A stretch of 64,000 nt of DNA from Myxococcales bacterium (GTDB taxonomy: Bacteria > Myxococcota_A > Polyangia > Polyangiales > Polyangiaceae), in the NCBI GenBank assembly GCA_947473045.1, contig CANJCO010000002.1, forward strand, positions 1 to 64,000, given 5' to 3'. The notes under the pieces were generated by a model. It was not told the origin of the DNA and ran no database searches. It worked only from the letters and a program-made list of their open reading frames with translations. Position 1 is the first letter of the stretch; every line of letters begins with the position of its first letter. Both the position numbers and the translations under genes were made by a program. Positions 1,906 to 3,846 of the stretch are shown here, piece by piece.

Positions 1906-2118
1906 TGTTCGAGGCTACGCTGCCTGCGGCGACTGGACCAGCGCCCCAAAAGTTCTTCGCTCAAAAAACGCACGCCCAACAAAACACGCGAGCCTCGCGC
2001 TCGCAGCGTGAATGATGGGTGCATTGGCCCGGCCGCGCGTTCGGGGCCGCGATCCGATATAAGCTGCGCCCGCGCGGATTTCCCGTCTGCGCCCGCCCGC
2101 CAAGGAGAACCGTTTTCC
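1906..2118. promoter_or_regulatory. divergent intergenic region between the CTERM-like gene and hisS
   Basis: This 213-bp region should hold promoters for both flanking genes. A TATAAG hexamer at 2058-2063 is a plausible -10 for hisS, but no convincing -35 lies 16-18 bp upstream. A strong Shine-Dalgarno AAGGAG sits at 2102-2107, ahead of the hisS ATG at 2119. Confidence 0.3.
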
Positions 2119-3600
2119 ATGTCTGCACAAACCGCCGAAGCCCGCCTCGTGAGGGGATTTCGTGATGTCGAAGCGGCCGAGATCCGGCGCCACGATGCGA
2201 TGATCGCCACGATTCGTGAAGTCTACGAGCGCTACGGCTTCGAGCCGCTCGAGACTCCTGCGTTCGAGTACACCGACGCGCTCGGCAAGTTCCTGCCCGA
2301 TCAGGATCGCCCGGGCGCGGGTGTCTTTTCGGTGCTCGACGACGACGAGGCGTGGATGAGCCTGCGCTACGATCTCACTGCGCCGCTCGCCCGCTACGTC
2401 GCGCAGAACTACGAGAGGCTGCCCAAGCCGTACCGCCGCTACGCGACTGGCTCGGTCTTTCGCAACGAAAAGCCAGGGCCGGCGCGCTTTCGGCAGTTCA
2501 CGCAGTTCGACGCCGACACCGTGGGCACCGAGAGCCTCGCGGCCGACGCGGAGCTGTGCATGCTCGCAGCCGATACGTTCGAGGCGCTGGGCATTCGGCG
2601 CGGCGACTATGTCGTGAAGCTGAGCCACCGCAGGCTCCTCGACGGGGTGCTCGAGGCCATCGGCGTCACCGCCGCGACTGATCCGGAAGGCACGCAGCGG
2701 CTCGCCGTGCTCCGCGCGATCGACAAACTCGACCGCCTCGGAAATTCAGGCGTTTTCGCCCTGCTAGGCGCGGGCAGAAGAGACGAGTCGGGCGACTTCA
2801 CCAAGGGCGCCGGGCTCGCCGCCGACGCCATCGCGGTCGTCATGCGTTTCGTCGGAGCGACCGCCGAGAACATCGACGCTGCGCTAGGCACGGCCCACGC
2901 GCTCGTCGCGTCGTCGGAAGTTGGCCGCGCGGCCGTGGAGGACCTCCGCCAAATCGGCGCGCTGCTCACCGCGGCAGGTTACGGCCCCGATCGCGTGCGG
3001 TTCGACTCGACCGTGGTTCGCGGGCTCGAGTACTATACAGGGCCTGTCTTCGAGGCCGAGCTGACCTTCGAAGTCGCCGGCGACGACGGCGCGCCGATCC
3101 GCTTTGGGGCGGTGGGCGGCGGCGGTCGCTACGACGATCTCGTCGCGCGCTTTTTGGGCCAGCGCGTCCCCGCAACGGGCTTTTCGATTGGCGTCTCGCG
3201 CCTTCAGACCGCGCTCGCGCACTTGAAAAAAGATGAGCCTGGGGCGGCCTCGGGGCCAGTCGTTGTGCTCGTCATGGACCGGGCGGAGCTACCGAAATAC
3301 CAGGCGCTCGTGCAGACCCTTCGCCAGGCCGGCATCCGCGCCGAGATGTACCTCGGCAGCTCGGGCATGAAGCCGCAAATGAAATACGCCGACCGGCGCG
3401 GCAGTCCGTGCGTGGTGATTCAAGGGTCGAACGAGCGCGCAAACGGCGAAGTTCAGCTCAAGGACCTCGTCGAAGGCGCGAAAGCGGCCGCGTCGATCAA
3501 AGACAACAAAGAGTGGAAAGACGCGCGGCCTGCGCAGATCACCGTGAAAGAGGCCGATCTCGTCGAAGCCGTTCGGGCCATCGTCGCGCGGCACGCGTAG
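2119..3600 (+). CDS. hisS: histidyl-tRNA synthetase, alphaproteobacterial/divergent type
   Basis: Charges tRNA-His with histidine (class II aminoacyl-tRNA synthetase, cytosolic). The listed ORF starts at 1678, but the AAGGAG site and homology place the start at ATG 2119, giving 493 residues. Motif 2 is [14 protein letters not shown] (114-127). The substrate loop reads [15 protein letters not shown], with Asp where E. coli-type enzymes have LRPEGT. The histidine-A motif is [15 protein letters not shown] and motif 3 is [16 protein letters not shown]. These are signatures of the divergent HisRS of Caulobacter-like Alphaproteobacteria and not of the usual bacterial enzyme. The GLEYYTG and motif-2 residues argue against HisZ. 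A tRNA-His gene with matching unusual identity elements lies convergently 65 bp downstream. Confidence 0.95.
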
Positions 3601-3616
3601 CGCCGCGAAATCGGGC

Positions 3617-3660
3617 AAAAAAAGCTCCGACGTCGGGCCTTTGGGGCGCGTCGTCGGAGC
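3617..3660 (-). terminator. rho-independent terminator of tRNA-His
   Basis: On the minus strand the perfect 9-bp inverted repeat GCTCCGACG / CGTCGGAGC (3652-3660 with 3624-3632) is followed directly by seven T residues (A run 3617-3623 on the plus strand). It lies just after the 3' end of the tRNA. On the plus strand no T run follows, so it serves the tRNA and not hisS. Confidence 0.85.
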
Positions 3661-3664
3661 GACC

Positions 3665-3741
3665 TGGTACCAGCTCTCGGGGTCGAACCGAGGACCTCTA
3701 GATCCACAATCTAGCGCTCTAACCAACTGAGCTAAGCCGGC
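3665..3741 (-). tRNA. tRNA-His (anticodon GTG), lacking G-1, with A73
   Basis: The minus strand folds into a complete cloverleaf: acceptor GCCGGCT / AGCTGGT (with G1-U72 and G4-U69 wobbles), D arm GCTC-AGTTGGTTA-GAGC, anticodon stem CTAGA / TCTAG with loop TTGTGGA (anticodon GTG), variable AGGTC, T arm CTCGG-TTCGACC-CCGAG. The discriminator is A73, followed by encoded CCA (3665-3667). Canonical bacterial tRNA-His encodes an extra G-1 opposite C73. Here the preceding base is T and position 73 is A. G1-U72, A73 and U20a are the features reported for the divergent Caulobacter-type tRNA-His. Moving G1 to -1 would break the D-arm and T-arm spacing. Confidence 0.95.
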
Positions 3742-3846
3742 ATGCAGCCAAGGCTTCCTATGAGCCGCGGACGAAAAAAGCCAGCACAAAACGCGCGGCT
3801 CGCGCGCGCGGCGGCGCAGCGGCCCCGGCGAAGGGCGCGGCGGGCC

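Follow-up and report, generated by a model that had tools for sequence, protein, structure and literature searches.

The 64-kb window, by which we mean the whole stretch of DNA that was analysed, carries a histidyl-tRNA synthetase (HisRS) gene and a tRNA-His gene that would together form an orthogonal pair. We consider it highly probable (about 0.9) that one apparently myxobacterial family acquired this pair from a Hyphomicrobium-like alphaproteobacterium and that it replaced the resident canonical pair there. The anatomy of the locus, the affiliation of both genes with the donor, the absence of a native pair from the assembly and the sporadic distribution of the pair at different sites were all read directly from the genomes. 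The locus comprises the following features.

2119..3600, plus strand: hisS, histidyl-tRNA synthetase of 493 aa, alphaproteobacterial (Hyphomicrobiaceae-like) type (TIGR00442, Pfam, tree)
2455..2499, plus strand: motif-2 loop of this HisRS (ungapped motif comparison)
3617..3660, minus strand: hairpin (3660-3624) followed by T7, directly 3' of tRNA-His (fold, sequence)
3665..3741, minus strand: tRNA-His(GTG) with encoded CCA (ARAGORN; Rfam RF00005, 66.7 bits; base reading)
3742..3742, minus strand: position -1 of the tRNA-His gene, which is T and not G (sequence)

ARAGORN and Rfam place one tRNA-His gene on the minus strand, with ends at 3741-3665/3668. G1 lies at 3741, the anticodon at 3707-3705, U72 at 3669 and the discriminator A73 at 3668; G1 pairs with U72, no G-1 is encoded, and the molecule has a G4-U69 wobble as well as an extra nucleotide, U20a (GGTTA versus GGTA in canonical siblings). 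Lack of an encoded G-1, the G1:U72 pair, A73, U20a and the end at 3741 had all been named in the original prediction, and reading of the bases bore out every one of them. Canonical tRNA-His genes from sibling genomes and from the order level have G-1 and C73 in 25 of 25 cases (and G1:C72 in all 20 that were computed), so the combination of ends seen in the window is not background variation. A canonical pair, that is G-1:C73 together with a canonical HisRS, is not what the window contains.

The two genes are convergent and lie 64 bp apart. The hairpin found between them (fold of -36.1 kcal/mol, z -2.9, when folded as the plus strand) with its T7 tract is likely to act as an intrinsic terminator of the tRNA-His transcript, judging from its sequence and position; a simple terminator scan did not pick it up at 3617-3660, and a scan for sigma-70-type promoters found none. 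Upstream of the pair, at the window edge (12-629), a tandem FG-GAP/VCBS-like repeat protein is encoded, as far as reading of its translation goes.

The window holds a single hisS, which scores 374 bits with TIGR00442 (cut-off 286.75) and has the usual catalytic and anticodon-binding domains (Pfam tRNA-synt_His and HGTP_anticodon). In canonical HisRS, a Gln in the motif-2 loop has been reported to contact the G-1:C73 pair, and its change to Gly is described as the derived alphaproteobacterial state (PMC3937112). Gly120 of the window enzyme (2476-2478) occupies the site of this Gln in the canonical sibling enzyme (G037, MFRAERPQRGRYRQF), which is the change described for the alphaproteobacterial type. 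Divergent HisRS motifs had been proposed from the sequence, and those quoted are indeed present; two of them are generic for class-II enzymes or HisRS, and only the motif-2 loop bears on tRNA specificity. Even this Gly is not diagnostic alone, because it is found at the same site in G058, G214, G165, G176 and others, whose tRNA-His is of the G-1/C73 kind; we therefore do not accept it as a marker that identifies the A73 type by itself.

As to the donor, a scan of the genome collection placed the nearest HisRS outside the host family in Hyphomicrobiaceae (64-71% identical), with 71% identity to Hyphomicrobium sp. GL140_1_metabat_265. Two maximum-likelihood HisRS trees were built with different alphaproteobacterial sampling and contained no eukaryotic HisRS. 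In both, the enzymes of the window and of two other genomes of the family, G140 and G251, are nested within Hyphomicrobiales (Alphaproteobacteria) and are sister to that Hyphomicrobium sequence (support 99/95 and 100/98); the alphaproteobacteria and these three family genomes form one HisRS clade (99/98). The window enzyme does not group with the ordinary enzymes of its phylum; such a grouping would have spoken against the original prediction. The tRNA points the same way. All 22 alphaproteobacterial tRNA-His genes that we read have G1:U72 and A73, and the window tRNA-His is joint-closest to those of Hyphomicrobium sp. GL140_1_metabat_265 and a second Hyphomicrobiaceae genome (70/74 positions), while it reaches at most 56/74 with canonical siblings and likewise with the other A73-type tRNA-His genes of the phylum. 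The window and Hyphomicrobiaceae molecules also agree in the G4-U69 wobble, in U20a and in both the D arm and the anticodon arm. Since enzyme and tRNA are both closest to Hyphomicrobiaceae, both appear to have been transferred, and from the same source. An alphaproteobacterial type of the pair had been expected with a Caulobacter-like affinity; the affiliation of both genes stands, with Hyphomicrobiaceae, not Caulobacter, as the nearest source, and the suggested co-transfer is supported as a recent import. We also noticed that position -1 is T in 15 of 22 alphaproteobacterial tRNA-His genes without G-1 (L208-L229); this T could pair with A73, and a relation to RNase P preference is possible.

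Within the host family, this HisRS type occurs in the window genome, G140 and G251 among 108 genomes, and in the more distant G116. G140 and G251 belong to two other genera, and their HisRS is 95% and 88% identical, respectively, to that of the window. The tRNA-His is identical in all three genomes, with T at position -1 in G140 and C in G251. By blastn, the DNA in common with G140 spans 2030-3826 (89.5%) and that with G251 only 2135-3798 (79%), and the flanks are unrelated across the three genomes, which means that the pair occupies different genomic sites. As the flanks are unrelated beyond the shared DNA, the moving unit seems to be little more than the two genes. A larger transferred island was considered and rejected, because the shared DNA stops just outside hisS and tRNA-His. 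A PLD-type gene next to hisS in G140 and G251 was likewise rejected as a common element, the best protein alignment covering 46 residues.

Several side observations concern the G140 contig (C6, L236). Here hisS and tRNA-His are separated by an insert (2565-3558) that carries a HicA-type toxin gene. An 85-bp direct repeat, a duplicate of the 3' part of the tRNA-His gene, bounds this insert; the tRNA-His gene may thus double as an insertion site. The gene directly upstream of the pair (26-859), at the contig end, is DrmC-like (PADLOC, E 3e-75). DrmC is a component of DISARM-type phage defence.

It was plausible to ask whether a native pair is still present elsewhere in the host. The assembly (5.15 Mb in 138 contigs, with hisS on a contig of 180 kb) is estimated at 99.98% completeness and 0.09% contamination. 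A TIGR00442 profile search of it returned a single hisS over the cut-off, and the next match (153 bits) lies below it and probably represents HisZ. There is one tRNA-His among the 41 tRNA genes (Rfam matches, each read with ARAGORN), and a separate pattern search agrees. The search for a second tRNA-His or a canonical hisS, by which the original prediction had proposed to refute itself, thus found neither in this draft assembly. The expected tRNAs for Ile, Tyr, Thr-GGT, Gly-TCC and Ala-TGC are missing from the 138 contigs as well, so a second tRNA-His in a gap keeps a small probability; the missing isoacceptors probably belong to repeated, badly assembling regions. The canonical pair is independently absent from the window genome, G140 and G251, the latter two being drafts of about 510 and 150 contigs.

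Other explanations of these observations have to be weighed against import of the pair. One is that the enzyme alone was transferred and that the resident tRNA-His adapted in place through loss of G-1, C73 to A73 and C72 to U72. Such an order of events has a precedent in the earlier proposal that the ancestor of Alphaproteobacteria received a HisRS by transfer and that the tRNA rules diverged afterwards (PMC3937112). In our case, however, it is the body of the tRNA, and not its ends alone, that matches Hyphomicrobiaceae (70/74 against at most 56/74), down to G4-U69, U20a and the D and anticodon arms, which makes in-place adaptation unlikely; we regard this scenario as clearly disfavoured and very improbable. 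Vertical inheritance from a family ancestor, with loss of the pair in most members, would account for its presence in three genera of one family, but it is hard to reconcile with the degree of divergence: the canonical HisRS of genus g1 shares only about 51% identity with that of g4 (267 aa), while for the imported HisRS of the same genera the figure is 95%. Moreover, the genomic sites differ, and members of two of these genera keep the canonical genes: a G-1/C73 tRNA-His occurs together with a canonical hisS fragment in G315, the window congener, and with a canonical hisS in G037 and G284, which are congeners of G140. We find this explanation quite unlikely.

A eukaryote-like route, in which a Thg1-type enzyme would add G-1 opposite A73 post-transcriptionally, comes to mind because A73 is the eukaryotic discriminator of tRNA-His and a Thg1-like protein is known from Myxococcus. 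Yet no Thg1 (PF04446) was found in the genome by a search that detects it in the control Methanosarcina acetivorans, and the HisRS is alphaproteobacterial by tree, so this route has hardly any probability in our view. Nor do we believe that the contig is alphaproteobacterial or comes from another bin. The assemblies are drafts in many contigs, which would allow for such an error, and mis-binning of the 15-kb G140 contig that carries the pair retains a small probability. The window contig, on the other hand, is 180 kb long in an assembly with very little contamination and no other hisS or tRNA-His, and three genomes independently lack the canonical pair. In addition, the CBM9-like and GH57 genes located 0.1-1 kb beyond the tRNA-His have counterparts in G315 with 63% and 81% identity, adjacent to each other and in the same order, at a locus without hisS; as these neighbours match the congener, the window contig belongs to the genus. 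Contamination is thus extremely improbable.

How the imported pair took over is a matter on which we infer the charging specificity, the stage of coexistence, the mode of DNA movement and the order of events. By homology to its alphaproteobacterial relatives, the window HisRS would read G1:U72, A73 and probably the anticodon, and would not need G-1; RNase P would be expected to process this tRNA in the ordinary way, with G1 as its 5' end. The imported enzyme and tRNA would recognise one another but neither member of the resident pair, so that the two pairs could coexist at first, and the native hisS and tRNA-His would have been lost after this period. As the two genes are adjacent, they would have moved together, and the pair might then travel between genera as a unit of roughly 1.7 kb, landing at different sites. 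The present distribution would be explained if the pair spread from genus to genus as a compact unit and displaced the native genes.

Physical adjacency of the two genes, pointed out from the window sequence alone, holds for the window genome, G140 and G251, in all of which the arrangement is convergent, but it does not go back to the sampled donors, whose two genes are unlinked. Indeed, hisS was beside tRNA-His in none of 108 alphaproteobacterial loci (79 with up to 3 kb of flanks, 29 with 1.5 kb), and in none of 23 host-phylum loci with other types of HisRS (G010 among them). Linkage must therefore have arisen in an unsampled donor or after transfer. It was found in 8 of 9 genomes of the host phylum with the A73 type or near type. 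In five of them (G002, G116, G036, G211 and G689) tRNA-His immediately precedes hisS in the same orientation, while the tRNA-His of G010 (A73, U72) is unlinked.

Recognition of this kind is known. According to earlier reports, alphaproteobacterial HisRS relies on G1:U72 and A73 in place of G-1:C73 (PMC7590224; PMC9976931), and A73 tRNA-His without G-1 is described for a clade of Rhodobacteraceae, Rhizobiales, Caulobacterales and Hyphomonadaceae (Ardell and Andersson 2006; Wang et al. 2007; Yuan et al. 2011, as cited in PMC3937112, PMC9976931 and PMC7590224). The window pair resembles this system in lacking G-1, in G1:U72 and A73, in the motif-2 Gly and in having a HisRS inside the clade. It differs in that it resides in another phylum, that its genes are adjacent, that it is sporadic in the host family and located at different sites in related genomes, and that the imported enzymes have A or S for G two residues after the diagnostic Gly. 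With the canonical pair kept by sibling genomes it shares the anticodon and the class-II enzyme family, but all defining features of the tRNA ends are replaced. The nearest parallel is that of candidate-phyla bacteria with archaeal-type TyrRS/tRNA-Tyr and TrpRS/tRNA-Trp identities (PMC5370408), where a synthetase and a matching tRNA identity also occur in an unexpected lineage. Those cases concern other amino acids and lie between domains, whereas ours is shallow, with an identifiable donor lineage and close relatives that keep the old pair. Our literature searches found no earlier case outside alphaproteobacteria, the founding work of 2006-2011 being known to us through later citing papers. 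The pair is thus of a known kind, and its transplantation between phyla as a compact unit, together with the deeper lineages described below, appears to be new.

The rules by which synthetases recognise tRNAs are considered resistant to lateral transfer. Here one crossed phyla recently, which indicates that such a rule can move as a two-gene unit. With an identifiable donor, relatives that have the old pair, and adjacent genes as a physical explanation for the transfer, the path by which an essential component of the code is replaced becomes open to experiment. Linked natural orthogonal HisRS/tRNA-His pairs could also be useful starting material for genetic-code engineering.

The original prediction had offered a wider and older distribution as a further possibility, and deeper, sparser A73-type lineages do exist in the same phylum. 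Our survey of tRNA-His ends and HisRS covered the host phylum and alphaproteobacteria. A pattern search for U72-A73-CCA tRNA-His hit 7 of 379 genomes of the phylum, and two more genomes belong here although they escape the pattern, G116 for lack of an encoded CCA and G211 because of its U73. Apart from the three family genomes, A73/U72-like tRNA-His with divergent HisRS is found in G002, G689, G036, G211, G116 and G010. The HisRS of G002, G689, G211/G036, G116 and G010 fall outside the 99/98 alphaproteobacterial clade; G116 and G010 sit on long branches and their precise position is uncertain. A single clade of all A73-type HisRS of the host phylum was rejected (AU test, p 8.6e-9). A single origin within bacteria has been claimed for the A73 rule of tRNA-His (PMC3937112), and the origin of alphaproteobacterial HisRS is disputed between eukaryotic transfer and convergence (PMC5370408). 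These deeper A73-type lineages, all of which branch outside the alphaproteobacterial clade, conflict with a single alphaproteobacterial origin, and provide new outgroups for this dispute. They fit either an A73 rule that predates the alphaproteobacterial clade or several additional transfers. More tentatively, and with somewhat less than even odds, linked tRNA-His/hisS units may be a recurrent, self-sufficient vehicle for transfer of the rule between phyla: the A73/U72 rule would then have originated not in Alphaproteobacteria but in more ancient bacteria, whose remnants are the tRNA-hisS operons of G002, G689, G036/G211 and G116, and the ancestor of Alphaproteobacteria would have received it as a linked unit of this kind.

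Further variation was observed among these tRNAs. G211 is an exception among A73-type genomes, since its tRNA-His (L051, 1098-1173), directly upstream of an A73-type hisS, has G1:U72, U73, G at -1 and no encoded CCA, thus extending the variation of the discriminator. G010 (L313) and L053 have an A73/U72 tRNA-His without a linked hisS, and a divergent HisRS with Arg at the motif-2 position; they might be an independent or very old case of the A73 type. Finally, the tRNA-His of G078 (L264) and G266 (L275) has C73 and G1:C72, with T or C at -1 instead of an encoded G, and HisRS in the family of these genomes mostly carries Gly in the motif-2 loop; this tRNA-His is possibly another G-1-independent variant.
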